Positions 1-26,555 of a stretch of DNA of 30,994 bases are shown here, piece after piece (the first letter of the stretch is position 1; each line of letters starts with the position of its first letter). The DNA lies in the IMG/VR virus record IMGVR_UViG_3300032116_000903, positions 1 to 30,994 of that record; one strand, written 5' to 3'. Made by a program: the position numbers and the translations under genes. This stretch comes from a virus. Below the pieces are notes generated by a model. It was not told where the DNA came from. It was given only the letters and a program-made list of their open reading frames with translations, and did not search any database.

Positions 1-1810
1 TAATGCCACTATTTACCGTTACTGGGCCAGCACTTAAACCATTATTTGTTGATGCAATTGTGTAGTTCTCAGCGATGGTATTTGCGTTTAACATTATACC
101 ATTTGTAGCAACTAATGCAGTAGATTGCAGCTCACCTGTACTGGGCTTGTACAGCAGCTTGGCATTGCCTGTATAAATTGTACTGGCTGTACCGCTTGTG
201 CTAGCCAAGAAAGCTGGGTATACGTTTGTTGATGTTGATGTGTCGTTGCTGATTGTTACTCCAGCAGCAACCGTAGTAAACGACAGCGTTCCAGAACCAT
301 TGGTTACTAAAGCCTGACCGTTTGTTCCATCTGTTGTTGGCAAATTAACAGCAGTAAGAAATGACGTTAGGTTGCTATCGTATGCTTGGACGCTCACGCC
401 AATTGCGGCAGACTTTAGTATCGTTGCGTCTGCTGGCTCAAAGCTAGCTGATGAGTATGTGCTGTCTTTGATGAGCTTACCTGTTGTGCCATCAAACGCA
501 GCAAATCGGTCATTGACTGCGGATGCTGGGCCGGTAACGTCACCGGAGCCAGTACCGGATGCGCCTTGCTGGGCAAGAATATCCCAGTATGTTGTGTTGG
601 TAGGCAGGTTGCCGGTTGATGCCAGCTTACAGATATAGCTTGAGCCGTTGTAGCTGACTGCGTCATCGACTACATAGGATGTGCCGCCAGCATAAGTACC
701 TAGCCAGTTCATGCCCACCGGGCCAGTTGCCCCTGTTGCCCCGGTTGCTCCGGTTGCCCCCGTGGCCCCGGTTGGGATTCCAAGGGTCAGGGTATAGGTT
801 CCAGAGTTGTAAGACGCTGTTGCGCTAGACCCGGCCGAGAGCGTCGTAGCTGTGGCCGTAAAGTTTGTGGCTAGGTTAATCGATGCATCACGGGCAGCCT
901 CGGCTGCTGTCTGAGCAGCTTCTGCATTTGTCTCAGCCGTCTCAGCGTTTGTCTCAGCCGTCTGTGCATTTGTCGCTGCGGTGCTAGCGGTAGAGGCAGA
1001 GCTTGCCGCATTGCTTGCGCTGGTGCTGGCAGATGATGCGCTGCTGGCCGCATTGGTCGCAGAGGTTGATGCGTTAGATGCCGAGGTGCTGGCGTTAGAG
1101 GCTGACGTTGAGGCGGCAGATGCGCTGGCAGCAGCTGCTGTAGCTGAAGCCCCGGCAGATGCGTTATCTACAATCAGATCCCACTTGGCAGAATCGGTGT
1201 TAGTAGAGATAGGCTGCGATCCGCTAGACGTATGCGAGGTATTGGCATAGTAGATGTTGCCGTTGCTGGTGTCTTTGACAATGTCGCGTTTATTGTAGGA
1301 AGTTGTAGCTGCCCAATTGCCACGGTTATCGCCAATTGTTTCGCCGGTTGTTGGGTTTCCATTGACATCAAAAGCAAGAACTTTATTAGCCCGTACAGTA
1401 GACCGTGGCAGGGTCATGTTGATTGAGGTTGGGTCAGTCTGCGGAGCCTTCAGGGATCGGTCTGCGGCCTCGGCATTCTGCTGGGCAAAGATGGTCAAGC
1501 TGTCGAGCTCATCGTTAATCGTATTGGCAAACAGGTCACCGCCCGTCACAAAGTCTGATGTACGCTGAATCGCCCGGTCGCCAACGATAGCTATCTGTGT
1601 AGCACCAGTTGGTGTTGCAGTCAGGGTGACGTAGCCGGTGCCGTTGCTGTTGATGGTGACCGTGTAGTCTGTGGTCAGCGTCAGCAGGGTATCGTCCTTG
1701 TACACAGAGATATCTGTGTTAGCCAGAATCTCAAATGTAAATGAGTATGGCCCGGTGCCAGAGGCGGCGAGCACTACTCGACGGGTGACGTTAGAAATAG
1801 GAACCGGCAT
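1..1810 (-). CDS. Tail fibre protein, T7 gp17-like N-terminus (3' end off the window)
   Basis: Receptor-binding fibre of the virion. The frame opens at the ATG at 1810-1808 and stays open to base 1, giving at least 603 residues with the C-terminus missing. The first ~110 residues resemble the N-terminal anchoring domain of T7-type fibres: beta-rich, with a segment like DFVTGGDLFANTINDELD and then FAQQ, near residues 85-115. An Ala/Ser/Thr/Asn-rich stretch follows (repeats of ASTSASNA and TAETNAE, about residues 215-310), likely an extended trimeric shaft. A short collagen-like run of GAT triplets lies near residues 345-360. The rest is beta-rich and repetitive. It is the last gene of the leftward structural operon, after the ejection proteins. 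The T7-like anchor is clear; the distal part shows no enzymatic domain I can name. Confidence 0.85.
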   Translation of the reverse strand, partial: MPVPISNVTRRVVLAASGTGPYSFTFEILANTDISVYKDDTLLTLTTDYTVTINSNGTGYVTLTATPTGATQIAIVGDRAIQRTSDFVTGGDLFANTINDELDSLTIFAQQNAEAADRSLKAPQTDPTSINMTLPRSTVRANKVLAFDVNGNPTTGETIGDNRGNWAATTSYNKRDIVKDTSNGNIYYANTSHTSSGSQPISTNTDSAKWDLIVDNASAGASATAAAASASAASTSASNASTSASNASTSATNAASSASSASTSASNAASSASTASTAATNAQTAETNAETAETNAEAAQTAAEAARDASINLATNFTATATTLSAGSSATASYNSGTYTLTLGIPTGATGATGATGATGATGPVGMNWLGTYAGGTSYVVDDAVSYNGSSYICKLASTGNLPTNTTYWDILAQQGASGTGSGDVTGPASAVNDRFAAFDGTTGKLIKDSTYSSASFEPADATILKSAAIGVSVQAYDSNLTSFLTAVNLPTTDGTNGQALVTNGSGTLSFTTVAAGVTISNDTSTSTNVYPAFLASTSGTASTIYTGNAKLLYKPSTGELQSTALVATNGIMLNANTIAENYTIASTNNGLSAGPVTVNSGI

Positions 1811-1848: not shown

Positions 1849-4800
1849 TTAATCTTCTATAGGCTCGCGCTTTTGCTGCATATATTTCTGCTCTGCGCGG
1901 AACTGGTTTTTCTTCACGTTCTTTGCCAGGTCTGGATACTTGGCCTGGAACCCAGGATTTTCAAATGCGGCTTTCTTAAAATCCTCTTTAACTTGAGATA
2001 GCCGATTGATCGGAGATTGATATTTCATCTGGGCTATCTCATCGCTTGTGGTTGGTGAGAATAAGATATCTCCAACAGCCTGCTTGTATGTCTTGCCGCC
2101 AACCGTGACTTTGTTCATGGTCAGGATCAAGTCAGAGTACTCGGCATCATTGAGCTTGATATTGGATATCGTCCGCTCTGGGATAGAGATGGGTTGCTTG
2201 CCAGACCGCCTAGCCAGGTCGACTATCTTTTTGTCGATGTTGTCCAGGTCTGCCTCTTTGCGATAAAACGGCATGATCCAGTACATGGGGCCGACCTCTC
2301 CCACCTTAACTTCTTCTCCCCATATGTTCCTGGTTGGAGCCTGGCCCTCGCTAAGTAATGGTGTCTTGGCTGCCCAGGTTCGATATAGAAAATCAAAATA
2401 TCTTTCGTCTGCTGGCAAGCTTGGGTCAACCCTGACCTGGCGTTGCGTTGGATCTATTGTGGTTTCAATCTGGCGAATCAATGCACCACCCGGTGTCGGC
2501 ACAGGAACAATACCGCCGGGGAAGTTTTGAGCTATGCCGCCAAAAAACTTATTGGCCGCAGCTGATGCACGCTCGCCTGTCGGGTCGCGCTTGAGTTCCT
2601 CAATCATGCTGGTAAGGTTTGCCATGCCAGACATGAACGGCAGCTCGCCAATATATTTAAATGGCAATAGCGCAGAATAAAGTAATAAATCAGTCCAGTC
2701 AGAATCATCGTCTTTGGCGTAGACAGAGCCAACCTCGGCAAGGGTTGCGGCCATGCCCATTAACCCACCAAGCGGTTCTAGTCCAGCATACGAACGATAT
2801 ACGCCATCTCCAAAATTAACAGAAAACGGCTGCCAGCCAGGATTGGTTTGGCGCAAGAATTCCTTGCGCTTTGGATCTGTTGGGCCAGCTCCGGTAATTG
2901 TTCCGTCTAGAGCAAGGTAATAAACAAAACCCATAAATGAACTGCCCATTGACATCTTGCCTAGTGCCATCTGACGGCGTGCGCCACCAGCCGCAAGTTC
3001 TGCCCTAACATCAGACATAACCGGCGCAAACGGAGTGCGCTTAAATAGTTCCTTCTCGACGTTGACTATGGTCTTAACGAATGGAGCCAGTACGGTTCCG
3101 ACCGGGCCAAGTCGGTTACGCACCATCAGCATGGTATTGCCAATCTGGCCCATGTCACTTTGAAGCGCAGCCTCTTTGACAGAATCGTCTACTCGCTGAA
3201 GAATTTTTGGGTCAGGATTTGTGATCTGCATGACCATGCCATCTAATGCTTGGTCAACCGGAACGCCGTTATCAATAGCCATCATTGCCTGTCTGGCAGC
3301 CAACCTCCTGGTTTCCATTTGTGCGACTACTGCTTTAGAAAACTCATCACCAGCTAGCATGGCTCTAAACGGTAAGCGGATAGCTTTGCCCATAAAGTCT
3401 ACGGCCTGGGCTGTTGGCGTGTTTGGATCTGCAAACAGTCGAGCAGATAGCGCAGGCATTGGAACCTTGTCTGCGTCTTTGCCGGCATACTGCGGGGTGT
3501 CGGTTTTAAATGCCCTGATACCGGCCTTAAGAGCCTTTGGAACAGCCAAGAAAAAATTAGCAAATTCAATTGCGGCCTCTGCCGCGTAAACCCTGTCAGA
3601 GCTTTTTGAACCAAACACAATTTCAATTGGCTTATCTATAGCCCTGCCAGCGGTAACAGCAAACGTCGTATCAAATCCCCTGGTCAGGTTCATAATTATG
3701 TTGCCATACAGGTTGCGCTCAATTGTTGCTGGCGAATACATGATCGAGCTGGTATACATCTCCTTCCAGATTGACCCGAGATTCTTCCAGGCACCACCTG
3801 CCATCTGCACAAACCTGGCACGCTCTTCCATGCTTAGAGTTTCGTAAGCCTCGGCCATTTGCTTGAGGTTTAATCTGCCGCCGTTTTCGTTAAGCAGCGT
3901 ATTGATTGCAGCTGGATCGCCAATGCCGGTTGTGCCATCGACCGGCAGACGGAAAGACCGCAGCGCACGGGCTATCTCTGTCTGGGCTGCCTTCACTCTC
4001 ATCTGAATAGCAGCGTGGGTGGCAAGCTGATTGCGGAACTCTAAGAGCAGCGCATCATCTTCTTTATTCGGGCCAAGATCCTTTACCCGCTTGGCAAGGT
4101 CATCAAGCTTTGATGCCGAGCGCACCAAGAGCTCGCGAGCCGCGAGCATCTGCTCTGCGTTAAATGTCGTGCCAATCCCAGCCTTGATCATCTCCGGCAT
4201 AATGTTTAGCCGGGCAGCCATGTCTTTAACTGCCTCATCACTAAGCACGCCACGCTTGGCAACGTCGGTCTCTTTGGCGAACACCTGACTTACCGCATCA
4301 ATAGCCTTGTCGATATCCTCCGGGCCTTGGATGTAGTTGAAGTTGAAATCAACTCCGACCGCAGGAGCGTCCGCACCGGATAAAAACTTAACCGCCTGCA
4401 CAGGGGTGGCGGTTTCAATCACCAGCTGGTTTGGAGGCGTAGCGGCCTGGACTACATTCTGGGTATCGACCACAGGTGTTGTGGTCTGGATATCTCCGGT
4501 GGTGGTGACATTGATTGGGTTATCGATCTGGTTAGCCGGCGGGGTTACCGGCTGGTCTGCTTTGGGCTTTTTGCTTGGCGTAAGCAGGCCAGGCTTTTTT
4601 GCCTTCTCTAGCTCGGCTGCGCTTTTGATCACCTGCTCTTGCAGCTCGGCACCAGTTGCTACGGATTCGGGAATCTTGCGGACGGGTTTGACACCGGCTT
4701 TGATAATCTGAATTACAGAGCCGGCAATCTCTACCGGCTCGGTCTGCGGCTCTCCTGCCTGTGGTGGCTGGATCTCTGTAAAGTCCAGCTCCGGCTGGTT

Positions 4801-4860
4801 GGCCTGCTCGATAGACTTAGCAAGGGTATCAAGCCGGGTGTCAATGTCCTTGATTGCCAT
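1849..4860 (-). CDS. Large internal virion (DNA-ejection) protein, 1003 aa
   Basis: Probable internal core/ejection protein, equivalent in position to T7 gp16: a very long gene just upstream of the fibre in the structural operon. The N-terminal ~200 residues are Pro/Thr/Gln-rich and low complexity. The middle is long and helical, and a conserved-looking stretch around residue 375 (YSPATIERNLYGN) precedes a region with hydrophobic, amphipathic segments (about residues 590-740). The C-terminus is charged. The middle-to-C-terminal part recalls the 'large polyvalent protein' associated domains seen in phage ejection proteins; that is recollection, not a search. I see no lysozyme or transglycosylase motif. 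Its ATG overlaps the stop of the tiny upstream gene (TAATG). Confidence 0.7.
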   Translation of the reverse strand: MAIKDIDTRLDTLAKSIEQANQPELDFTEIQPPQAGEPQTEPVEIAGSVIQIIKAGVKPVRKIPESVATGAELQEQVIKSAAELEKAKKPGLLTPSKKPKADQPVTPPANQIDNPINVTTTGDIQTTTPVVDTQNVVQAATPPNQLVIETATPVQAVKFLSGADAPAVGVDFNFNYIQGPEDIDKAIDAVSQVFAKETDVAKRGVLSDEAVKDMAARLNIMPEMIKAGIGTTFNAEQMLAARELLVRSASKLDDLAKRVKDLGPNKEDDALLLEFRNQLATHAAIQMRVKAAQTEIARALRSFRLPVDGTTGIGDPAAINTLLNENGGRLNLKQMAEAYETLSMEERARFVQMAGGAWKNLGSIWKEMYTSSIMYSPATIERNLYGNIIMNLTRGFDTTFAVTAGRAIDKPIEIVFGSKSSDRVYAAEAAIEFANFFLAVPKALKAGIRAFKTDTPQYAGKDADKVPMPALSARLFADPNTPTAQAVDFMGKAIRLPFRAMLAGDEFSKAVVAQMETRRLAARQAMMAIDNGVPVDQALDGMVMQITNPDPKILQRVDDSVKEAALQSDMGQIGNTMLMVRNRLGPVGTVLAPFVKTIVNVEKELFKRTPFAPVMSDVRAELAAGGARRQMALGKMSMGSSFMGFVYYLALDGTITGAGPTDPKRKEFLRQTNPGWQPFSVNFGDGVYRSYAGLEPLGGLMGMAATLAEVGSVYAKDDDSDWTDLLLYSALLPFKYIGELPFMSGMANLTSMIEELKRDPTGERASAAANKFFGGIAQNFPGGIVPVPTPGGALIRQIETTIDPTQRQVRVDPSLPADERYFDFLYRTWAAKTPLLSEGQAPTRNIWGEEVKVGEVGPMYWIMPFYRKEADLDNIDKKIVDLARRSGKQPISIPERTISNIKLNDAEYSDLILTMNKVTVGGKTYKQAVGDILFSPTTSDEIAQMKYQSPINRLSQVKEDFKKAAFENPGFQAKYPDLAKNVKKNQFRAEQKYMQQKREPIED

Positions 4861-5039
4861 TATCCAATTCCTTTGTTCATTGCGGCCAGGTCGGCAACAT
4901 TGATGGCCGGGCCTTGCACGGTCGGATCTTCACCGGCTGCCCACCAGTTCGGGAACTCAATGCCGTCTTGCATGAATTCCTGTGCTCGCGGAAATTGCTG
5001 AAGAAAGTCTTCTTCGGTAAGTTTGACCTCGTTAATCAT
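4860..5039 (-). CDS. Small hypothetical protein between ejection-protein genes, 59 aa
   Basis: Starts at the ATG at 5039-5037, which overlaps the TGA of the upstream 756-aa gene (ATGA), and its TAA shares a base with the ATG of the 1003-aa gene (TAATG). Both junctions argue that it is translated by coupling. The product is acidic, with the segments LTEEDFLQQFPRAQ and FPNWWAAGEDP, and has no membrane segment or recognised domain. Its position inside the ejection-protein cluster suggests a minor virion or assembly protein, but function is unknown. Confidence 0.7.
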   Translation of the reverse strand: MINEVKLTEEDFLQQFPRAQEFMQDGIEFPNWWAAGEDPTVQGPAINVADLAAMNKGIG

Positions 5040-7306
5040 TGCGCCGCCCTTTCGGTAATCTGCTCACCAGTTTCAATAATCGATGGCCGTTCCTGGCCCT
5101 CGGTCTTGAGCATCATAGCCTCTCTCTTTTGGCGGGGGATGGTTACCTGGTCGCCAAGCTTGGGGTCGTACTGCACAAAAAATCCCTTGGAATCCTGTGC
5201 CGCCATAGATTCTTTGCGGGTCATGGCCTTGTTCTTTAGGCCAACAATCACGCCATCCATGCCAGCCGGCTGGGCATCCATCGGACGGAAGTCATAGGCA
5301 TCCCCGTCAATGACCCGGTAAGTTTTGCCGGTGGCCTCATCAAACACGCTGGCCGGCAGACCTTTCTTGCTGCTGAATGCCATTGCCACGTTTTGCCCTT
5401 CGTCCAGCCATTGGCGCATCTGAATCCAATTTGAATGTGGATTTTCAACATCCACGCTTAGGCCGTTCTGGCCGGCTTTTTGAGACAGGCCGGTCGAGCT
5501 GTAGGTGTAGTGGTGGTTGGGCGCAACCGGGCGGTACTTCATCTTGGTGTAGTCGTAGAACAGAACATCTGGGTGCGATTCGATGATCGACTTATAGACC
5601 TTCGGGTCGATGTCCGACAGTACGTTTAGACGGATTGCCAGGGCGTTGCCATTTTTGGCAGCTGCCTTTTTCAGCGAAATGATTTCATCGTTGAGCTTGA
5701 TGGCAAAAGCCTCTGGCTCGCGGAACATGGCCTGGGTCATCCTAAAGCTCCGCAGGCGGGTTCCCTTCATGGCCTCTAGGTCTGCGCCACCGCCGTAGGC
5801 AAAGTAGCCGCCAGAGGTCTTTCCGAGGCATTCCTGGGCGCAGCTGGCAGAGTTCGGGCAGGTGCTGAATTTTCCCACCTTAAATGCCGGGGAGATAGCC
5901 AGGCCGGCACTTTCGATATTGCGACCATCCGGCAGCTCGATTGGCGTGCCGCCCTCCACCCCGGTCTCGGTCTTGAGCAGCTTGCCGTTTGTCGTAAGCA
6001 GCCTCTTGGCACCGCCATCCTTTGCTGTGCCAAGGATCGGAGCTAGCCGCTGGTCGGCCATCATGGCTGCGCTCTTTAGGTTGGCAGGGTCTAGCTTATT
6101 GACCCAGGCCATAGCGTCATCAAACGCCCTGGTGAAATTTTGGGTGGACGGCTCAAACGGGAACGGCTGGGCAATCAGGTCTTTGAATGCCTGGTCGGAA
6201 TATATCTGCCCCTTGGGCGTAACGTCGGAGACGTACTGCTTGAGCTCCTTTTGCTGCTTGCCGGTCAGCTTGGTGCCAGTCTCTTTTTCAATTGCCTGGA
6301 TCATCTTGGTCGGAGACATATTGGCTGCAACACCGTCGGAAACAATTCTCTGGGCTACAGACAGTCGTTGCGGGTCGATATTGCTTAACGCCATCTCTGG
6401 AGCGTTTGCGCCTTTGATGGTGATTGCGCCAACCGGGGGCGTGCTCGTCATCTGCTGCGCTATTTCCTTAACCGCTCTAGACGTAACCTTGGCGGCCTTA
6501 ACCGCCAGAATTGGGTCGGCAAGAAAGCCGCCGGCAAACTCACCGCCAGCCGCTGCCTTCTCGCGCAATGCCCGGTCGGCAGTAGCCCCTTCAGGAATTG
6601 TTGGCGGTAGGATGCCGCTGCGCTCGATGTCTTCGGATGTCGGCAACAGGGTCTCAGAATCAAAAGCTTGGGCTGCCCGGCCAAGACGATCCATAAATGT
6701 GCCGCCCTGGCGATCCATAGCAAAGCGGCCAATGAAGTCAAAGAATTGTTCTACATCGCCACCAAACCCTAGCGTACCCTTGACACCACCGCGGGCAATA
6801 CCGGCCAGGCCATCAACGACAACCTTGCCCATCTGTGCCGGGCTCATGCTCTGTGCATCAGCTGGCAATGTCATGCCGCCCTGGGCGACGAACTCGTCAA
6901 CAATCGACGGCTGGCCCTCGACATCCTCTGGCATTGTTGGCTGTCCGACACCGCGGATGTTGATCCGCAGCGGTGGCTCATCTGACGGCAGCCGTCTTTC
7001 TGTAACGACAACACTTGGAAGCACACCGCCAACAGCTGGTGCCGTGCCGCCGCCGGGAAGAATTGCTGCAGCCGGAGCGTCAGTCATTGTGGTCGGGCCA
7101 GACGCAACCTGGATGGATGGGCCGACACCGATTAACCGGCCATCATCCCCTTTGAGAAACACGCCAGCAAAGCCATCGTCATCTGTAATCGTAACCAGGT
7201 CTGGATCACCAGCAGCTGCGCGTTGAAGATATCCGTCCCTGACACCGGGAATGGACATCATGTCATCAAAAAAATAAATGTCATCGACACGGCTAAATTT
7301 AATCAT
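5036..7306 (-). CDS. Virion-region protein with C-terminal Cys-motif phage domain, 756 aa
   Basis: Two-part protein in the ejection-protein cluster. Residues 1-~440 are low in motifs: Pro/Gly/Ala-rich linkers and a helical stretch (about 290-350) with a KETGTKLTGKQQKELKQ-type segment. From about 450 to 700 it matches, by eye, a phage protein family of unknown function. The signature is C483-x5-C489-x3-C493 (TCPNSASCAQEC), followed by IRLNVLSDID (about 558-567) and LFYDYTK (about 582-588). Relatives are usually free-standing. The Cys cluster could bind metal or an Fe-S cluster; that is inference. The start shares ATGA with the upstream gene. The function of the domain in a particle is unknown; it may be ejected into the cell. 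Confidence 0.7.
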   Translation of the reverse strand: MIKFSRVDDIYFFDDMMSIPGVRDGYLQRAAAGDPDLVTITDDDGFAGVFLKGDDGRLIGVGPSIQVASGPTTMTDAPAAAILPGGGTAPAVGGVLPSVVVTERRLPSDEPPLRINIRGVGQPTMPEDVEGQPSIVDEFVAQGGMTLPADAQSMSPAQMGKVVVDGLAGIARGGVKGTLGFGGDVEQFFDFIGRFAMDRQGGTFMDRLGRAAQAFDSETLLPTSEDIERSGILPPTIPEGATADRALREKAAAGGEFAGGFLADPILAVKAAKVTSRAVKEIAQQMTSTPPVGAITIKGANAPEMALSNIDPQRLSVAQRIVSDGVAANMSPTKMIQAIEKETGTKLTGKQQKELKQYVSDVTPKGQIYSDQAFKDLIAQPFPFEPSTQNFTRAFDDAMAWVNKLDPANLKSAAMMADQRLAPILGTAKDGGAKRLLTTNGKLLKTETGVEGGTPIELPDGRNIESAGLAISPAFKVGKFSTCPNSASCAQECLGKTSGGYFAYGGGADLEAMKGTRLRSFRMTQAMFREPEAFAIKLNDEIISLKKAAAKNGNALAIRLNVLSDIDPKVYKSIIESHPDVLFYDYTKMKYRPVAPNHHYTYSSTGLSQKAGQNGLSVDVENPHSNWIQMRQWLDEGQNVAMAFSSKKGLPASVFDEATGKTYRVIDGDAYDFRPMDAQPAGMDGVIVGLKNKAMTRKESMAAQDSKGFFVQYDPKLGDQVTIPRQKREAMMLKTEGQERPSIIETGEQITERAAQ

Positions 7307-8916
7307 CGTGCGCCTCCACCGCCTTTTTTGATGTTCTCTCTATATCTGGTGACCGCTGATCTAGCCGAAGATATATCTTCAGCTTTGGGTGGTTTTTTCC
7401 TTTTCATTGCCGCAGCAAAAGCTGCGTTAACGGCAGCGTCGTCCATTAGGTCAACTCCAGTTAACTCTGGAATAAACATGGCAGCTGTGTTTTTTGATTC
7501 GACCGCAACCTTATCAAAGATTGGAGCCATGCTTCCTTTAAGTCCGTCGTTTAGTTCGTTTGCCTTTTGACGGATCATTGCGTCATTCGGAAACATACCT
7601 TTCTCGTCTGGCGTATTTCTGAATTTAATAAGCTCAAGCTTGGCGTTGTTAACTGCACTTACAGCAGCGGCCCGACCTTCGGCAGACGGAATCTCCGGTG
7701 GCAGGTTTGCATTTTGAATACCAACCGTTAGATCAAACATACGGTTAGATTCGTTCATTGCATCATTCGGATTGGCAATCTGCAGCGCAATGCTTTTGGT
7801 TGTTGCTTTGGTTAATCTGTTTCTGTTGGACACCAGTTCATCAACACTTAGCGCACCCCTGGCTGCCTTGCTGGTTAAATCAATTAGGACGCGGATGTCA
7901 TCCGTTGCCGCGCCGGACTGGTCGCTATTGATGTATTCGCGGATTGGTCTGAGCTTATTTGGATCTAGCGGCAATTGAGATAGCTCGCCATACAGCCTAG
8001 TCTGCTCTGCCGGGTCATTGCTATTAATGATCTTGCGAATGATTGGATCGGCCTGCAGATTGGCATTTGTGTATTGGAAATCAATTCCCTTTTTAATCAT
8101 GGCCGTGCGCTGCTCGATCATGTCGAACACGGCCTTGCGCTCGTCTATCCCCATGCGCTGCCAGTACTGCGTATATCTGCCAGCCTGGTCAGTATTCAGT
8201 TTATTGATGGCCTCGGTAACCGTTCCGGTGGCAGCAAAATCTGGCGACATAAAGTACTGAGCCATGACATTGTTCCTGGCATTGTTTGCCATTTTGTCGA
8301 ACTCGCCATTTGGCCCCATGTACTTGTTGTAGCTACCTGGGTTTTGCAGAGCAACTCCAGAAATAATGTTTTTGTTTCTGTTTAAAAACTGGTTAAGCTC
8401 TTCTGGCTCCATTGTTTGCCAGGCATTTTCATATGACCTAGCAATAGATCTAATCGTCTCATCCGTTACCCTGTCGCGCTGAACCCCATATGCGTCTGTA
8501 ATTAACTTGGAGCTCTTATTAAGTAATGCTTTGCCTTGTGTCCTAATAGACTGCATAAGACCGGCAGCCTGGTCTGGATCAAGCTTAAACAAGTCTACTG
8601 CGCTACCTTCTAGCGAGCGAACTCTTTTTTGTATTGCAGAAAAATCAGATAGTCGCCCGGTCGTTACCTCGATGTCTGTGGTTTCTATTTCCTTTGCAAC
8701 CATCGATTCCAAGTCTGCTCGGAGCTGGATTGCAAGAATCTTGTCTTCCTTGCTTTGCCGTTCCTTTGCCTCGCCAAAAGCAAACTGGGCGAGCTTATCT
8801 AACGACGCGCCAATGCCTTGCTGTAGGCTGGATTGAGCCGCAAGCGTGGGCAAGTTTGTAGTTGGAATCGATGAGGACAGAGCCCCGGATTCTTGGTATC
8901 GCGGTATACGGGCCAT
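7303..8916 (-). CDS. Internal virion (ejection) protein, 537 aa
   Basis: Mostly alpha-helical, hydrophilic protein without membrane segments or enzyme motifs, in the slot between a gp14-like and larger ejection proteins. That is where T7-like phages carry gp15-type core proteins. The N-terminus (ARIPRYQESGAL) resembles starts of other podophage internal proteins, followed by long coiled-coil-prone helices (AKERQSKEDKILAIQLRADLE, about residues 50-70). It ends with a Lys/Arg/Gly-rich tail. The stop overlaps the start of the downstream 756-aa gene (ATGA), and the upstream gene ends two bases before its ATG. Function is inferred from position and composition. Confidence 0.65.
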   Translation of the reverse strand: MARIPRYQESGALSSSIPTTNLPTLAAQSSLQQGIGASLDKLAQFAFGEAKERQSKEDKILAIQLRADLESMVAKEIETTDIEVTTGRLSDFSAIQKRVRSLEGSAVDLFKLDPDQAAGLMQSIRTQGKALLNKSSKLITDAYGVQRDRVTDETIRSIARSYENAWQTMEPEELNQFLNRNKNIISGVALQNPGSYNKYMGPNGEFDKMANNARNNVMAQYFMSPDFAATGTVTEAINKLNTDQAGRYTQYWQRMGIDERKAVFDMIEQRTAMIKKGIDFQYTNANLQADPIIRKIINSNDPAEQTRLYGELSQLPLDPNKLRPIREYINSDQSGAATDDIRVLIDLTSKAARGALSVDELVSNRNRLTKATTKSIALQIANPNDAMNESNRMFDLTVGIQNANLPPEIPSAEGRAAAVSAVNNAKLELIKFRNTPDEKGMFPNDAMIRQKANELNDGLKGSMAPIFDKVAVESKNTAAMFIPELTGVDLMDDAAVNAAFAAAMKRKKPPKAEDISSARSAVTRYRENIKKGGGGAR

Positions 8917-8918
8917 GA

Positions 8919-9512
8919 TTAAATTACCGTTCTTGTTTCTACCGGAGCTGGAAACAACCAGTTATAACTCGTTCTATCAAACCCGCCACCCTTGCCAGCT
9001 GTTGCTCCAGCCAACAACAACTTTGTGCCAGCCTCAAACGCGCCAGCCTGGCGAGCAGTTTTGGCAGCGGCAATGCCAGACTGCATTGCAATGTCGCCAG
9101 CTCTGAATGACGCATCAGAATCTGCCATGTATATCTGGAACTCGCGGCCAGCTGCTGTTTCGTTTGCCGCGCGCACAACATCTGGCGAGCCGCTAAACGG
9201 ATCAATGCCACCGGCAAATGCGCGAGCAGCTAGGGCCGACTGTGTGCGCTTTAGGTTTCTTAATGTCTCGTTTGCTTTTTGTTGGTACTGGATAGCCCTG
9301 CGGTCAAACTGTGTCTGCTCAAGCCGGCCCCTGAGTTCTAGCTGTTTAGCCTGGATCTGGCCCTGCTGGTATGAACTATAAGCAGAAAGCGTCGTTGCGG
9401 CCACAGCTGCAGCCGTAAACGGATCGTTGTGAATCTTGCTTGATCCAGGCGCATTGTGCGGATCGCCCAGCGGCAGATCATTTACCAATACATCAAATCT
9501 GCTCATTTTCAT
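8919..9512 (-). CDS. Internal virion protein, gp14-like, 197 aa
   Basis: Small Ala/Gln-rich helical protein directly after tail tube B, the position of T7 gp14. A short hydrophobic Ala-rich helix (AAAVAATTLSAYSSYQQGQ) is followed by a coiled-coil-like segment (QAKQLELRGRLEQTQFDRRAIQYQQKANE) and a Gly/Ala-rich region. This pattern is common in podophage proteins that are ejected first and form a channel. I placed the start at the ATG at 9512-9510 (MKMSRFD), just after the upstream TAA and preceded by a GGGGG run. The frame is open further upstream, but that would overlap tail tube B. The next internal ATG, at 9506, is also possible. Confidence 0.65.
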   Translation of the reverse strand: MKMSRFDVLVNDLPLGDPHNAPGSSKIHNDPFTAAAVAATTLSAYSSYQQGQIQAKQLELRGRLEQTQFDRRAIQYQQKANETLRNLKRTQSALAARAFAGGIDPFSGSPDVVRAANETAAGREFQIYMADSDASFRAGDIAMQSGIAAAKTARQAGAFEAGTKLLLAGATAGKGGGFDRTSYNWLFPAPVETRTVI

Positions 9513-9513
9513 G

Positions 9514-11514
9514 TTAGCCCCCGGGGTAGGTAGATATCTTGTATTCCAGCCCAAGCAAAGTCATTTTGAGCGGGACAGTTTGCTTAACAGTAATCTTGCC
9601 TTCTGTTGTATAGCCAAGAATGCTGTCGATAGTTTTTGTGCCAGTAAACTCAGGAACTGCTTCATCTAATGTGCCTCCTGTATCAAAGTTTCTAAACGGC
9701 AATTCGTTGTCATTGATAACCAGGTGCTGGGTATCTTTAACGATAGCGTTAACCTCAATGATTCGTTTTTGGTATGCCAGCCTGGTGCCGGCTGCAATCT
9801 TGATATCTGCCGGCATGGTGACTGCTTGCACCGTGTAGTTCAGCCCCACCTGGTATGTACTTGCAGATGATCGCGGGAATGTAACGGTGCCTCCTCCTGG
9901 TACGGTCTGAGCTGCTTGCACCGCACCGTCCAGAATAACCTGTACGGATTTGGCGACCAGGTGAGACATAGAAACCGACGCTGCCGCACCTCCCGATTTG
10001 GCGCAGTCGGTCTGAAACGTATCGTCAAACACTTCGATAAAGTATTGTGTCGTACTATTAACCGTGCGTTTCACCACGGTATAAATAGTTGTAAGGTCTA
10101 CGCCGACATCAAGATATTCCCCGTCTGTAGTCCACTCCGACGGTGCAATGACGTTCTGAACGCGCAGCAGGGAAAACGCCGCAATTGAACCGCCGGTGCT
10201 GTTGACTATTAACAACACATCGTTTTCGTCTGTAGCAACCGAGCGACGCAATGCCATTCTGGTTGGAGATTTAAGCAGGTGGCCGGCAAGCAAAGATATC
10301 TTGCTGGTAACGTATGTAAGCTGCGTATCCGTAAATGCAAACTCGTTGAGCGACTTACCCTGGCGTTGCAAGAATAGCGTTCCAGATTCCAGCTGCTGTA
10401 CACGCGCACCTTCTTTGGCACCGTTTCTTGTCGTTGCCTTAACAAAAAAGTTAGTAGGCGTAATTGGATCTAAGCCCTCTTGCGGAACATAGAACTCACC
10501 GCCGGTTGTAAATACCTGCAGGTCGCGACCAGACGTAATATCAACGATTGCGTTAAATGTATTGGTATCTAGCGTGGCTTCGACCGCGTCATCATCTAAG
10601 CCCTCTGTTGGCTCAAAGTCAAAGAAAAGCCCAGCCTTTGATCCCCACACAGTCGATGGCCTGGACTTAGAACCGCCAAAGTAAAGCCGGCCCTCATGGA
10701 ATGTCACCGACCGCGGCCATCCCTTGCCAGAAGACCATACGGCCTCGTAGCCCGTCTCAAGCTCCCAATCGTTATTGGCGATTGCGCTGGTATTAAAAAA
10801 CGGAAATTCCACAATAGCCTGCACTACTGTTGCGCTTGTGTACTGCACAATCTTTGCTCTGCCCTGGGGGCTGGCATTAATATACTGCCCGACAGATGCT
10901 GCGCTAAACGGAGTTCCTGTTGAGGCTGTCAGCGTCACCTTGCCAGACACGGCAGACGGTGTAAGCGTGCCGGCTGGGTTGCTGGCCGACAGGGTAAAGG
11001 CATACTTAGGAATTGAATCAAAAGTCAGCGTGCTGGCTGTCCAGGCAGAATCGTTTGCGCCGCGCACAATCTTGACCGGGTTGATATCCTGGTGGCACAG
11101 AATCAGAGTGTCGGCAGACTGTGTCCAGGTAAGGTTAGCCAAGCGAGCTCCGGTCAGGCCGTAGCTGCTAGTGTCTAGATAATCGATTGTGCCGGCATTG
11201 ATGTCGAGCTGCTGCACCGTGTTTTTGAACACATACATTCGGTTGTGCGTAAAGCACAGCATATAGCTGTCGCTGGTGGAAAACTCAAACGGCACCAGGC
11301 GCACGCCGTTTGCTACAGAATTGGCACCAGCATTTGGAAGATCAAGAATGTACTTAGAACCGGGTCTGCGACGAATCCCACCCTGTGGCTGCACCAAGAC
11401 ATTGGTAGCCTCTTCCAGGGCGTTTGAATAAGCCTGGAGGTCAACCCTAGCCCGCAGGAGCGGATCGAGCTCGCCGGTCGAGAAGTTGGTCTGGATGGAC
11501 GTAAAACGGGCCAT
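9514..11514 (-). CDS. Tail tubular protein B (nozzle), T7 gp12-like, 666 aa
   Basis: Forms the distal nozzle of the short tail. The N-terminus (SIQTNFSTGELDPLLRARVDLQAYSNALEEATN, then a GGIRRRPGSKYI stretch near residue 45) is the recognisable start of this family in podophages. The body is beta-rich, with propeller-like segments (GWPRSVTFHEGRLYFGGS, about residues 265-285). Its ATG shares a base with the stop of tail tube A upstream (11514), and its stop lies one base before the gp14-like start, so the tube A, tube B, internal protein order of T7-like phages is preserved. Length is somewhat under the ~790 aa of T7 gp12. Confidence 0.88.
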   Translation of the reverse strand: MARFTSIQTNFSTGELDPLLRARVDLQAYSNALEEATNVLVQPQGGIRRRPGSKYILDLPNAGANSVANGVRLVPFEFSTSDSYMLCFTHNRMYVFKNTVQQLDINAGTIDYLDTSSYGLTGARLANLTWTQSADTLILCHQDINPVKIVRGANDSAWTASTLTFDSIPKYAFTLSASNPAGTLTPSAVSGKVTLTASTGTPFSAASVGQYINASPQGRAKIVQYTSATVVQAIVEFPFFNTSAIANNDWELETGYEAVWSSGKGWPRSVTFHEGRLYFGGSKSRPSTVWGSKAGLFFDFEPTEGLDDDAVEATLDTNTFNAIVDITSGRDLQVFTTGGEFYVPQEGLDPITPTNFFVKATTRNGAKEGARVQQLESGTLFLQRQGKSLNEFAFTDTQLTYVTSKISLLAGHLLKSPTRMALRRSVATDENDVLLIVNSTGGSIAAFSLLRVQNVIAPSEWTTDGEYLDVGVDLTTIYTVVKRTVNSTTQYFIEVFDDTFQTDCAKSGGAAASVSMSHLVAKSVQVILDGAVQAAQTVPGGGTVTFPRSSASTYQVGLNYTVQAVTMPADIKIAAGTRLAYQKRIIEVNAIVKDTQHLVINDNELPFRNFDTGGTLDEAVPEFTGTKTIDSILGYTTEGKITVKQTVPLKMTLLGLEYKISTYPGG

Positions 11515-12128
11515 CAGTTCCTCACATCAATAAGGCTGAAGTCCTCGATTACCGGGATCGGCTGGCCCTGGGCATCAATGGTGGTGGCGGTACGCATATA
11601 CCCACCGCGGCCATTTTCTGACGGGTCGCCAACAGCAATCCGCTGCCAGTACTGGGTCTTATCAATCTGGTCTGTAATCGGCAGCGATAGGTGCCAGGCC
11701 ATCAGGTATTTGAGCAGCTGCACAAAATACACCGGCATTTCGTACTCAAGCACGGCATACGGATAGTCCACATAGATTGTGGTTTCGTTTGAAAGCAGCT
11801 TGTCTTGGAATATCCGGTAGGTCTTAATCGGCCTGGCACCGACCGCGTTGGTAACGAACACCATGCGCGGCGGGCCGATCCGGTCTCCGGGCAGCTGATA
11901 CTCGTATTTGTACTCTGTAGTCGGGGTTGTGATGAGCTGAGATAGCTGGATCTTTTTGTAAATAAAAGACCAGGGATAATTCAGAAGAGCCTGGTTTTTA
12001 ATGTCCGGGTATAGGCGGTCACAGACGTTGGCTGCGTTGGTGCCTTCGTTAAAGGATGAGATAGCTTTCGCACCCAGCATCAGGAGAGCGTCTGAGCAAA
12101 TCGATAGAGCGGAATCACCTGCAGCCAT
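11514..12128 (-). CDS. Tail tubular protein A (adaptor), T7 gp11-like, 204 aa
   Basis: Ring-forming adaptor that joins the portal to the nozzle. Residues 1-60 hold the family pattern: ALSICSDALLMLGAKAISSF, then AANVCDRLYPDIKNQALLNYPWSFIYKK, with a helical N-terminal half and the YPW motif. Length is close to T7 gp11 (196 aa). It overlaps the stop of the glycosyltransferase gene by 14 bases and abuts tail tube B. The three-gene enzyme cassette just upstream separates it from the capsid genes, which is not the usual T7 arrangement. Confidence 0.88.
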   Translation of the reverse strand: MAAGDSALSICSDALLMLGAKAISSFNEGTNAANVCDRLYPDIKNQALLNYPWSFIYKKIQLSQLITTPTTEYKYEYQLPGDRIGPPRMVFVTNAVGARPIKTYRIFQDKLLSNETTIYVDYPYAVLEYEMPVYFVQLLKYLMAWHLSLPITDQIDKTQYWQRIAVGDPSENGRGGYMRTATTIDAQGQPIPVIEDFSLIDVRN

Positions 12129-12780
12129 TTGCGTTACTCCATATATCTCTTACCCACCCAGAAGAACCAGAACCCTTTGGCTCGCCATGAAAACAAACTA
12201 CTCGCGCATCATCAGGTTTTGGTTTTCCAAGCAGATGGAATTTGTATGAAAAGATTCTATTGGGGAATATCTGTTGCCACAAGCAATCTGGCTTTTGATT
12301 CTTAACAATAAAAGCCTGGTCGCCAAGATTTACGCTGCCTGAGTACATCGTCATATAAAAATGTGGATCGGCCTTAAATGTCAGATAAATGTGCGAATAG
12401 TCGCCGTTCCAGGCCATCATGCCGCTGGCCGGCGTGTCGCGTTTACCAAGGTCTTTGAGCATGGTGAATTTGTGCGGGTACTCGGCTAGGTCGGTAAGGT
12501 CTCCGCAGATAACGGTATCGAGATCAAAGTACAAGACCGGGCCGTCAAAGACATATGAGAAGAGCTCTATTTTTGACCACCAGCCGGGCCAGCCATGCTT
12601 TAGCGGTATCCGCTCGCACGGTACGTCTACGTCCGAAAAGCACACAAACCTGTGCTCGCCCAGGTTGGCAGCGACCATGTTCTGCAGCCGCTCTACATCC
12701 TTCGGCGTGTATATCTCTTTGCCGGCAGAGTGCTGAAATTTGCCGGACTTTAAAACGCAGGCTACGGTAATCTCAGGCAT
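12115..12780 (-). CDS. Glycosyltransferase, DXD type (GT8-like fold), 221 aa
   Basis: Likely transfers a sugar from a nucleotide-sugar donor. The N-terminus reads as a GT-A strand-helix start (ITVACVLKSG), with a CFSD segment near residue 47-50 and a DxD metal-binding motif DLD at about 86-88 within VLYFDLDTVICGDL. GWPGWWSKIELF (about 63-74) precedes it, and SGMMAW and GDQAFI segments follow at conserved-looking spacing. The acceptor is unknown; it could be host surface glycan, a virion protein or DNA. It is the last gene of a tightly overlapping trio (8 bp with the methyltransferase upstream, 14 bp with tail tube A downstream), so it is made with virion proteins late in infection. Confidence 0.75.
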   Translation of the reverse strand: MPEITVACVLKSGKFQHSAGKEIYTPKDVERLQNMVAANLGEHRFVCFSDVDVPCERIPLKHGWPGWWSKIELFSYVFDGPVLYFDLDTVICGDLTDLAEYPHKFTMLKDLGKRDTPASGMMAWNGDYSHIYLTFKADPHFYMTMYSGSVNLGDQAFIVKNQKPDCLWQQIFPNRIFSYKFHLLGKPKPDDARVVCFHGEPKGSGSSGWVRDIWSNANGCR

Positions 12781-13216
12781 ATAGTGTCATCGTCCAAGGT
12801 CTGTGTTTTTTATAGATATCTGACTTAGGAAAAGCTGACACGCATTCGTTAAACCACGGGTGCGCCATTGCTGCATCCGCGTCATGCATGACAACTATGC
12901 TGGCAAACTTAGCCAGCACAGGAAGCCTCCTGATTCTGTCTTTTGTAGCCTCTTCGCTATCGAGAAACACTACATCCCAGCTGCCAGCCGGTGGAGACCA
13001 GTTAGTCCAATCTACAATTTGCACGCCATCAAATTGCGCGGCCCAGCTGATATCGCTGGCCTGGCACAGGAACGGTATCCCTTTTGAGGCAGATATCTCC
13101 CGCAGGATTGGCGTTGAATAATTTCCGCAGCCCAGCTCAAGAATCCCTTTCCTGGCCTCTACCGCAGCCCTGATTAACGGCTCAAGGTGGGTGGCATATT
13201 TATCCAACCGGAGCAC
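12773..13216 (-). CDS. Class I SAM-dependent methyltransferase-like protein, 147 aa
   Basis: Probable small methyltransferase. Motif I is visible as GILELGCGNYST (about residues 24-35), the SAM-binding glycine loop. A likely post-motif strand is WDVVFLDSEEATKDR (about 80-94), where the D could be the motif IV acid, and IVVMHDADAA follows. The protein is short for a full fold and lacks an obvious target-recognition domain. It does not carry the (D/N)PP(Y/F) motif of adenine or N4-cytosine DNA methyltransferases, so a DNA target is unlikely. It overlaps the flanking genes by 8 and 17 bases. A sugar or small-molecule acceptor, acting with the neighbouring glycosyltransferase, is plausible but unproven. 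Confidence 0.65.
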   Translation of the reverse strand: MLRLDKYATHLEPLIRAAVEARKGILELGCGNYSTPILREISASKGIPFLCQASDISWAAQFDGVQIVDWTNWSPPAGSWDVVFLDSEEATKDRIRRLPVLAKFASIVVMHDADAAMAHPWFNECVSAFPKSDIYKKHRPWTMTLYA

Positions 13217-13808
13217 CTAAGAGATTTTGTGTTGCGCCAGACATTGACCATATATTTTCTGTCTTGCCGTCTTTTGCCAGGTTGGTAAATATCTTCATCC
13301 AATGATCAACCTGACTGTCCTTGGCAAACTGGTTGTCGTTCTGGGTTGGTTTGCTTGGATACTTTTCGTTGTAGGTCAGGGTGTTGGTTGACAGCGGTAT
13401 GCCGGCCATAATTACCTCATCGAACCCCATCCCGTGTTTCGCCCATAAGGCACCAGCCGCACCTGATGACCCAACCACCCACGTTAGGCTCTGCCATTCG
13501 TAATCCACAAAAGCCCATTTGTGGTCTGGAACCGGGAGCCTCCACAGGCCAGCTCCGTTGTTGAAAAGTCTCGGTCTCGAGTGGACATAGATTCTTCGGC
13601 CAGCCTGCTCTTTGTACATTTGTGCGTGCTCTGAGTGTTGTGTCCAAATGTGCTCCACTTCTGGAATCATTGCAGCCGCATTGTTTACACCGAGGATCGT
13701 AGCACCTGGGCGCAGGTGGCGTGCTTTTTCTAGGTCTTCAAAGACACAAGGGGCTGCGCCACAAATAATGGCGCACCCCCTGTGCAAACCTTCATATACA
13801 GCAGCCAT
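13200..13808 (-). CDS. Rossmann-like protein, first gene of sugar-modification cassette, 202 aa
   Basis: Not firmly recognised. The N-terminus GCAIICGAAPCVFEDLEKARHLRPGATILGVNNAA (about residues 10-45) has the strand-loop-helix-strand look of a nucleotide-binding fold and resembles the start of the DUF115/MAF-like and related phage proteins found next to glycosyltransferases. VVGSSGAAGALWAKHGMGFDEVIMAGIPLS (about 110-140) suggests a second nucleotide-binding unit. Similar genes often sit beside methyltransferase and glycosyltransferase genes in phages. Together with the two downstream overlapping genes it probably makes or attaches a modification. Start is the ATG at 13808; it lies 25 bases after the decoration gene. 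Confidence 0.55.
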   Translation of the reverse strand: MAAVYEGLHRGCAIICGAAPCVFEDLEKARHLRPGATILGVNNAAAMIPEVEHIWTQHSEHAQMYKEQAGRRIYVHSRPRLFNNGAGLWRLPVPDHKWAFVDYEWQSLTWVVGSSGAAGALWAKHGMGFDEVIMAGIPLSTNTLTYNEKYPSKPTQNDNQFAKDSQVDHWMKIFTNLAKDGKTENIWSMSGATQNLLGAPVG

Positions 13809-19554: not shown

Positions 19555-20052
19555 TCACCTCATCATCAAAAAGTAATCGACCTGGTCTGTGCCGTACTTT
19601 TTCATTAGGCATTCCTCTTTAAACCCAACCGCGACTGCCCATTTGTACGCACGCGTATCCGTAGATCTAACGGTTATCTGCATTCGATGCAACGACATGG
19701 ATATCTCGGAGATATCTAAAACCATCTTGGCCGCTCTGGTCAGGGTCATCGGCATGGACTTAGCAATGTCATCGGCAATGAGCCATGCCTCGGCCACCCC
19801 ATGCCATATCGAGACAAAGCCAAAGACAGCAGCCGGTCTGTTGCCAACAAAAGCCGTAACAGCTGCGCCCATTTTTTCCTGTGTATCCAAGATATCTGCC
19901 ACCTCAGACTTGGTGGCGACCACCAGCACCTCTTCGGCCTTTACATGGATTCGATCTACATGGTGTTTGGCAAACGGCATAAAGAACACGCCGGCTCGCC
20001 TGGGTTGCTGGTTAAGTGCGTCAGCGAGACGCAAAGACATCAAAGTCGGCAT
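19555..20052 (-). CDS. gp13-like GNAT-fold phage protein, 165 aa
   Basis: Resembles the T7 gp13/DUF2833 group, proteins with an acetyltransferase-like (GNAT) fold found among podophage morphogenesis genes. Features are AAVFGFVSIWHGVAEAWLIADD (about 73-94), then SMPMTLTRAAKMVLD, and the closing AYKWAVAVGFKEECLMKKYG (about 135-155), the usual GNAT end. No clear acetyl-CoA loop (Q/RxxGxG/A) is seen, so catalysis is doubtful. The chosen ATG (20052) overlaps the TerL gene by 32 bases; ATGs at 20040 or 19980 are alternatives. Contains two GATATC words 11 bp apart (19700, 19711) in its coding sequence. Confidence 0.6.
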   Translation of the reverse strand: MPTLMSLRLADALNQQPRRAGVFFMPFAKHHVDRIHVKAEEVLVVATKSEVADILDTQEKMGAAVTAFVGNRPAAVFGFVSIWHGVAEAWLIADDIAKSMPMTLTRAAKMVLDISEISMSLHRMQITVRSTDTRAYKWAVAVGFKEECLMKKYGTDQVDYFLMMR

Positions 20053-25522: not shown

Positions 25523-26161
25523 ATGGCCAACTACGTTGCGTATTACCGCGTCTCTACCGACCGCCAGGGCCAGTCTGGCCTTGGCCTTGAGGCACAGCAA
25601 GCAGCTGTTGCTAGCTACCGCGAGAACATCGTTGCTGAGTTCACAGAAGTTGAATCCGGCAAGATCGATTCCCGCCCGCAGCTTGCAGCTGCTCTTGAGC
25701 TCTGCCGTAAGCTCGATGCATCGATCCTGATCGCCAAGATTGACCGCCTATCGCGTGATGCAGCTTTCCTGCTCACGCTGCGTAAAGCCGGTGTCGATAT
25801 CGTGGCCGCAGATATGCCGCACGCCGGCACCCTGGAGTTTGGCATCCGCGCTGTGGTCGCACAGCATGAGCGCGAAGAGATATCCAAACGTACCAAAGCT
25901 GCGCTGCAGGCCGCCAGAGCCCGCGGCGTGCGCCTTGGCTCACCCAACCCGTCAGCTGGTGCAGCGGTCACCTCTGCAGCTGCTGATGAGTACGCATCCA
26001 AGGTGGCACCGATTGTTCGCTCAATCGTAGCCAAGATGGGTGCGGCATCCCTGCGTGCAATCGCCCGCGAGCTCCAGGCGCATGGCGTGCAGACATCCCG
26101 CGGTGGCAGCACCTGGTCGCCGTCAGCTGTAGCCAATCTAATGCAGCGCATTGCTGCTTAA
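25523..26161 (+). CDS. Serine recombinase (resolvase/invertase family), 212 aa
   Basis: Cuts and rejoins DNA through a serine nucleophile. The N-terminal catalytic domain shows YYRVSTDRQ (S11, with R9 close by), AKIDRLSRD (71-79) with conserved Arg, and EREEISKRTKAALQAAR (about 116-132), the helix leading to the DNA-binding part. The C-terminal ~60 residues (ASLRAIARELQAHGVQTSRGGSTWSPSAVANLMQR) form an HTH-like domain. The size fits small resolvases or invertases, not the large phage integrases (~500 aa). Possible jobs are resolution of genome dimers, inversion of a segment, or integration; no site pair is visible. Confidence 0.88.
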   Translation: MANYVAYYRVSTDRQGQSGLGLEAQQAAVASYRENIVAEFTEVESGKIDSRPQLAAALELCRKLDASILIAKIDRLSRDAAFLLTLRKAGVDIVAADMPHAGTLEFGIRAVVAQHEREEISKRTKAALQAARARGVRLGSPNPSAGAAVTSAAADEYASKVAPIVRSIVAKMGAASLRAIARELQAHGVQTSRGGSTWSPSAVANLMQRIAA

Positions 26162-26351: not shown

Positions 26352-26555
26352 ATGAGCCAGACAGAGTGGATTCTTGAGGAGTTAAAGCGTGGGCGCAGCG
26401 TTAGCCCAATCGATGCACTTGCCGGGTGTCAATGTTTTCGCCTGGCAGCCCGCGTCCAAGAGCTGCGCGAGCGCGGCAACAACATCGTCACCGTGATGGT
26501 GGAACGAAACGGCAAGAAGTACGCCACCTACCGATTAATCAGGAGCAAAGCATGA
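26352..26555 (+). CDS. Small winged-HTH protein (HTH_39-like), 67 aa
   Basis: Compact DNA-binding protein whose whole length fits the small phage HTH family: EWILEELKRGRSVSPIDALAGCQCFRLAARVQELRERGNNIVTVMVERNGKKYATYRL. The helix-turn-helix is about 15-40 (SPIDALAG...RLAARVQELR) and the beta wing about 43-62. Members usually accompany recombination genes in early operons. The stop shares ATGA with the exonuclease gene, so the two are translationally coupled. Confidence 0.7.
   Translation: MSQTEWILEELKRGRSVSPIDALAGCQCFRLAARVQELRERGNNIVTVMVERNGKKYATYRLIRSKA

Follow-up and report, generated by a model that had tools for sequence, protein, structure and literature searches.

The slot gene and its ejection cassette

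The window analysed here is a stretch of viral DNA of 30,994 nucleotides (IMG/VR record IMGVR_UViG_3300032116_000903, positions 1 to 30,994). The gene of interest, which we call the slot gene, occupies 5036–7306 on the minus strand; the first-pass annotation had given exactly these coordinates, without a strand. The features of the gene and of the cassette around it are listed below, with the sources in brackets.

5036..7306, minus strand: cargo-slot gene, 756 aa from ATG, consisting of N-module, linker and GP88 domain (ORF list, Pfam, PHROG, locus comparison)
6407..7306, minus strand: N-module, residues 1–300, common to relatives with other or no cargo (function putative)
6170..6406, minus strand: linker, residues 301–379, common to GP88-bearing relatives (locus comparison)
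5060..6169, minus strand: long-form GP88 domain, residues 380–749 (Pfam, PHROG, AlphaFold2 model)
5828..5860, minus strand: Cys motif C483-x5-C489-x3-C493 (sequence, alignment)
5606..5632, minus strand: RLNVLSDID, residues 559–567, end of predicted strand 2 (AlphaFold2, A3 alignment)
5543..5560, minus strand: FYDYTK, residues 583–588, predicted strand 3 (AlphaFold2, A3 alignment)
9514..11514, minus strand: tail tubular protein B, the query used to fetch loci with the same cassette (PHROG)
8919..9554, minus strand: internal virion protein, phrog_418, E = 1.5e-7 (PHROG)
7303..8916, minus strand: 537-aa cassette protein, upstream of the slot (ORF list, cassette comparison)
1849..4860, minus strand: large internal virion protein, phrog_6651, E = 1.6e-23, downstream of the slot (PHROG)
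2..1810, minus strand: tail fibre gene, the end of the cassette, running off the window (PHROG)

The Pfam GP88 model (PF17338) matches residues 440–702 of the slot protein with E = 6.2e-19 and 69.2 bits, above its curated cut-off of 24.4 bits, and phrog_1617 ('unknown function') matches residues 462–700 (E = 9.4e-33). This is the phage family that had been described from the letters alone as usually free-standing and of unknown role, and it is indeed fused to other sequence here; the motifs by which it had been recognized, CPNSASCAQEC, RLNVLSDID and FYDYTK, start at residues 483, 559 and 583, respectively. The protein has three cysteines in total, C483, C489 and C493, and all three are invariant across the A3 alignment (89 members), as are R559, N561, S564 and D565 of RLNVLSDID and every residue of FYDYTK; no fourth Cys or His is invariant in A3. 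The spacing CX5-7CX3C is found in 125 of 127 GP88 family sequences and takes the form CX5CX3C in the window.

The block between tail tubular protein B and the fibre contains internal virion proteins and is a podovirus ejection cassette. The podovirus clade keeps the order tubA-tubB-IVP-537-slot-IVP-fibre, and in the window the stop of the 537-aa gene overlaps the start of the slot gene (7303–7306). The earlier placement of the gene between ejection-protein genes is borne out by 8919–9554 and 1849–4860, both of which are 'internal virion protein' in PHROG. A 'virion-like' N-terminus of ~440 residues had also been proposed. Its position, its collinear relatives and a weak match to gp25 of Methylophilales phage MEP301 speak for this description, but the N-terminal ~380 residues are without a match in Pfam or PHROG families and tblastn with the N-terminal 380 aa against cultured phages at E ≤ 1 gave no match either. 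The N-module is best conserved at residues ~130 to ~300.

MEP301 is the closest cultured relative and is collinear with the window (tubB 65%, portal 79% and TerL 81% identical). Its slot gene, gp25, encodes 161 aa without GP88. An N-module profile run against 19 proteins ranks gp25 first, weakly (E = 0.01), and position is a better argument than this match for taking gp25 as the slot counterpart. MEP301 has no RNA polymerase gene (PMC8024684).

Away from the slot, tail tubular A and the capsid gene are separated by three minus-strand genes (12115–13808); as judged by eye, 12115–12780 is glycosyltransferase-like, 12773–13216 is methyltransferase-like and 13200–13808 has no assignment. MEP301 lacks them at the corresponding place, so the interval may be a second variable spot. 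Also assigned by eye are a serine recombinase (25523–26161, plus strand), a YqaJ-type nuclease (26426–27514, plus strand) and an acetyltransferase-like gene next to the terminase (19555–20052, minus strand), a set that MEP301 shares.

Slot fillings in relatives of the window

The slot was surveyed at 80 loci fetched by tail tubular protein B, taking at each the gene flanked by the 537-aa gene and the large internal virion protein. Fifteen loci encode a slot protein with GP88, and 17 that are complete to the fibre encode one without it, of 154–799 aa; the 80 loci are those nearest to the window and the counts are not population frequencies. The N-terminal part is common: window residues ~163–296 match many slot proteins at about 28–35%, and that of L305 at 58%. 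In the relatives the flanking genes and the first ~160–215 slot residues are kept and the remainder is exchanged. Slot proteins of 154–196 aa, found in several phages, are the N-module alone, and alternative cargo is found at the following loci.

L305:7636-9450: DUF7178 (PF23802), E = 8.6e-8
L314:9302-11281: DUF7178 (PF23802) in another form, E = 4.8e-26
L312:4869-7040: phrog_7348-type module (matching positions 1622-2115 of phrog_7348), E = 4e-24, with the motif FVEEVQSDWHQ
L281:13159-15558: cargo without a convincing family match
L316:9193-11061: a second type without a convincing family match

Near-isogenic pairs locate the seam. L305 and L283, which carry DUF7178 and GP88 cargo, respectively, have 87–92% DNA identity upstream of it; the similarity ends at L305 position 8277, which is slot codon 214, and returns with 89% identity at 9433, just before the L305 stop at 9450. 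L346 shows the same kind of break when compared with L321 (97.5% downstream) and with L314. The pairs break at codon ~160–215 and rejoin at the stop codon, and the seam precedes the linker (residues 301–379). In the slot proteins themselves, L305/L021, L314/L312 and L330/L316 have N-termini that are 92–98% identical and unrelated C-termini, while L323/L314 is the reverse case, being 96% identical over residues 168–666 with N-termini that differ. GP88 was found nowhere else in the available sequence of 20 contigs with other fillings, most of which are fragments. Faulty assembly was rejected as a source of the swaps, since most of the types are present on several separate contigs and the break points are repeatedly codon ~160–215 and the stop codon.

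The fusion in the window is one filling of an exchanged C-terminal slot and not a lone oddity. That the slot gene is modular, with an exchangeable C-terminal half, is the claim in which we have very high confidence: one gene of the cassette behaves as an interchangeable payload bay, and payloads can be found by the rule of reading the sequence after the N-module. The natural contig pairs that differ mainly in cargo make the role of the cargo testable.

The GP88 family, its predicted fold and its resemblance to DUF5131

Relatives were drawn from IMG/VR as 48 loci by a whole-protein query, 80 of 200 by a domain profile and 80 of at least 594 by a mixed profile. They fall into two size classes, free-standing proteins, mostly of 225–300 aa, and the long form, in which GP88 is the C-terminal end of proteins of ~400–1565 aa. 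Free-standing copies lie in other, mostly non-structural, genome regions; in cultured phages they are found mostly in Mycobacterium and Pelagibacter phages, and in three Autographiviridae they lie upstream of the RNA polymerase gene. The copy in Pelagibacter phage HTVC024P, gp03, is free-standing and lies near the genome start, and the cassette of this phage is without GP88. GP88 is also present on bacterial and archaeal contigs (49 loci) and absent from the 14 well-known genomes examined. The literature yielded no paper on PF17338, DUF5131 or 'Gene product 88'. An encapsulin-type match of free-standing members (E = 0.001–0.025), a Latrotoxin_C match (4e-4, 1 of 89 members) and similar single weak matches involve one member each and were rejected as chance.

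The GP88-bearing contigs L210–L258 include Rhodopirellula, Spirosoma, Bacteroides oleiciplenus, Rhizobium, archaea and others. One relative on a Planctomycetota contig (L239:7992-8720; CPWHTEAYAAACL) keeps the first and third Cys and lacks the second, a natural variant that could be used to probe the putative metal site.

In a tree of 89 GP88 domains, all of the long forms make up one clade (support 1.0), within which the podovirus set is itself one clade (support 0.999). The long form is known from two virus groups, the podovirus clade and a group with an SU10-type portal gene. In 48 of 56 loci of the second group a portal of this type (PF23899 or phrog_1216) is found close to the GP88 gene, and in 31 of 56 ART-PolyVal-type proteins are; some contigs were retrieved twice, so that these loci overlap in part. 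L090 joins ART-PolyVal, a ParB C-terminal domain and GP88 in a single chain, and phrog_7348, seen above as slot cargo, also matches GP88-linked polyvalent proteins of this group. Structural-region GP88 is thus a single clade, occurring in the podovirus cassette and, in the second group, next to portal and ART-PolyVal genes. Phage polyvalent proteins are believed to enter the particle and to be injected (Iyer et al., 2017; PMC5512222); the main text of that paper does not name GP88, radical SAM or Gp37, and we did not find in it a podovirus cassette with C-terminal exchange at a fixed seam. The jumbo phage Tunturi_5 of Tunturiibacter (L123:7281-13229) encodes an N-terminally extended GP88 protein of 468 aa, adjoining a 1494-aa ART-PolyVal/GNAT/NUDIX protein, which is possibly a separate recruitment of GP88 to an injected set.

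These neighbourhoods bear on whether GP88 leaves the producing cell. The domain might act only there, or late, the fusion serving to express it with the late genes and the protein staying undelivered, as the mostly intracellular, non-structural nature of free-standing GP88 would suggest. However, the slot and its flanking genes are fixed in the ejection cassette, several phages keep the N-module alone as a separate protein and members of the same GP88 clade have portal and polyvalent genes as neighbours in the second group; we consider action confined to the producing cell improbable.

The first-pass annotation had raised a metal or Fe–S site at the Cys, an idea that merits following up, and had suggested fold prediction and a fold search for the Cys-containing domain. 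Residues 380–749 gave an AlphaFold2 model with pLDDT 91.4 and pTM 0.89, in which the Cys loop is the weakest part (pLDDT 66–91), and a free-standing member gave pLDDT 96.1 and pTM 0.91. The predicted order in the TIM-like barrel is strand 1, the Cys loop, two helices, strand 2 ending in R-L-N-x-x-S-D, a helix and strand 3 with FYDYTK, followed by strand 4 with T-x-S, a helix, strand 5 and strand 6. The models place the invariant residues, including the three Cys, at or just after the C-terminal strand ends in a radical-SAM-like order, but the search gave no significant PDB match: Foldseek with the long and compact models found nothing at E ≤ 0.001 in the PDB, the best TM-score being 0.34. Ranks 4–7 for the compact model are QueE, PFL-activating enzyme (twice) and TYW1 (E 0.21–0.23, TM 0.24–0.34), and HydE recurs for the long model with a poor superposition. 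Ordinary TIM barrels, glycosidases and transaldolases among them, make up most of the matches. In a viral structure library, the confident matches include every GP88-labelled protein and the remaining ones are unnamed.

Some ~20 positions are invariant, sited at the predicted strand ends, where barrel active sites lie. This argues against GP88 being an ordinary structural part of the particle, inert or a scaffold, with no activity of its own, an idea that draws on the lack of an assigned function for GP88 in any source examined. The occurrence of the domain as a free-standing protein in phages, bacteria and archaea also counts against such a role, and its replacement by other domains at the same seam points to cargo under selection; we find a purely structural role very improbable.

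Sequence comparison links GP88 to DUF5131 (PF07505). The Pfam GP88 model matches three of 13 DUF5131 proteins (best E = 1e-5), three of the 13 are also matched by Pfam Radical_SAM (best 2.2e-4) and in the other direction the DUF5131 model matches GP88 proteins at 0.0019 and 2e-4, the latter site being the GP88 gene of L209. The DUF5131 matches fall short of the family cut-off, with two of the 89 GP88 members matched (best E = 0.0019) and the window protein unmatched. Our own DUF5131 profile scores 12.7, 11.8 and 9.5 bits on GP88 proteins against 4.0, 1.8 and -0.3 on reversed sequences; our own GP88 profile reaches 5.4 bits at best on DUF5131, and the 1e-5 match therefore rests on the Pfam model. 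When the GP88 profile is aligned to L270, the Cys cluster, S-D and T-K are in register. In hhalign, GP88 against DUF5131 scores 23.4, compared with 11–13 when reversed and a maximum of 20.3 over 60 block shuffles, at a low probability (2.8–7.7), which we take as support, not proof. Some DUF5131 members have the canonical CX3CX2C (L208, CNHGCDYC). PDB sequence searches with the window protein and with the GP88 and DUF5131 profiles returned nothing, and NCBIfam gave no radical-SAM match and no other convincing one.

From these weak two-way matches, the order of the motifs and the predicted fold, GP88 resembles DUF5131 and, via DUF5131, radical SAM, and it probably works like a radical-SAM enzyme. 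The motif of the window protein (CX5CX3C) is not the radical-SAM CX3CX2C. Some radical SAM members have noncanonical Cys spacings. Given the noncanonical CX5-7CX3C and the lack of a significant PDB match, we do not file GP88 as a radical-SAM member. The slot protein might instead be packaged and ejected with its three Cys binding zinc or a structural cluster, GP88 being a binding protein or an enzyme of other chemistry on a TIM-like barrel. The prevalence of ordinary TIM barrels among the Foldseek matches, the missing canonical motif and the relative that lacks the middle Cys fit such a protein. Three invariant Cys with no invariant fourth Cys or His to complete a zinc site suit an open-site cluster better than structural zinc, and the two-way link to DUF5131, with its CX3CX2C-bearing members that match Radical_SAM, also tells against it; zinc or another chemistry seems to us unlikely, although a serious contender.

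Proposed delivery and comparison with known systems

Our overall reading, which we judge to be evenly poised between right and wrong, is that the slot gene encodes a modular ejection-cassette protein delivering exchangeable cargo, here a radical-SAM-like GP88. The N-module would be a small particle component that brings the protein into the virion and, along with the DNA, into the host, and the C-terminal half would be the exchangeable cargo, GP88 in the window phage. The three Cys in the loop after strand 1 would bind an open-site [4Fe-4S] cluster, and the pocket for cofactor and substrate would be lined by N-x-x-S-D, T-K, T-x-S and D-x-R-x-x-D at the following strand ends. Because it would arrive at entry, GP88 could modify a host component before the first phage gene is expressed; free-standing copies may do the same job as early genes of other phages. 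A cluster is unlikely to withstand the unfolding needed to pass a podovirus tail and would need rebuilding in the host; if present, it would be kept or rebuilt there after tail passage.

Packaging, ejection, the Fe–S cluster, catalysis and a role in takeover or counter-defence are what we infer from the loci and models. Delivery of the slot protein to the host is likely, since internal virion proteins flank it in an order kept in the clade and since the same GP88 clade lies near portal and ART-PolyVal genes in the second virus group, ART-PolyVal proteins being thought to be injected (PMC5512222). For the chemistry, we lean slightly towards a radical-SAM-like one, and a nucleic acid or nucleotide as the substrate is a guess that is rather unlikely to be right. 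More speculatively, the cassette gene could be a one-gene effector launcher, in which host-directed domains are spliced to a fixed ejection module at one seam by recombination, as in polymorphic toxins, with one cartridge of radical-SAM type; we put this forward tentatively and would not expect every part of it to hold. T7-like phage ejection proteins are usually viewed as a channel through the cell envelope, and to our knowledge no radical-SAM enzyme has been reported as virion-delivered. If the payload bay is real, small phages with no RNA polymerase of their own could act on the host before transcription. New here are the cargo slot, the single structural-region GP88 clade and the resemblance of GP88 to DUF5131 and radical SAM. 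The last of these links the orphan families Gp37/Gp68 and GP88 and offers a first structural guess for GP88, a domain of hundreds of phages.

Compared with the radical SAM superfamily (PF04055; QueE, PFL-AE, TYW1, HydE), GP88 is predicted to form a barrel in which a three-Cys loop follows strand 1, but there is no direct sequence match, the fold match is not significant and the motif is not canonical. DUF5131 (phage Gp37/Gp68) shares with GP88 the Cys cluster, a strand ending in S-x-D or N-S-M-S-D, a strand ending in T-K and later strands, whereas its Cys spacing is CX3CX2C or CX6CX2C against CX5-7CX3C in GP88. Free-standing GP88, such as gp03 of HTVC024P, has the same Cys motif, RLN..SD, FYDYTK and D.R..D; the window form is extended by extra N-terminal helices and inserts, is fused behind the N-module and is sited in the ejection cassette. 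MEP301 gp25 holds the same position in a collinear cassette as the window slot protein, but is of N-module size only, has no cargo and matches weakly in sequence. The polyvalent proteins (Iyer et al., 2017; PMC5512222) are multi-domain, lie in virion gene blocks and are thought to be injected, and long forms of GP88 adjoin ART-PolyVal proteins, with a fusion of the two in L090; the window protein, encoded in the ejection cassette, has one recognized family, GP88, behind an N-module.
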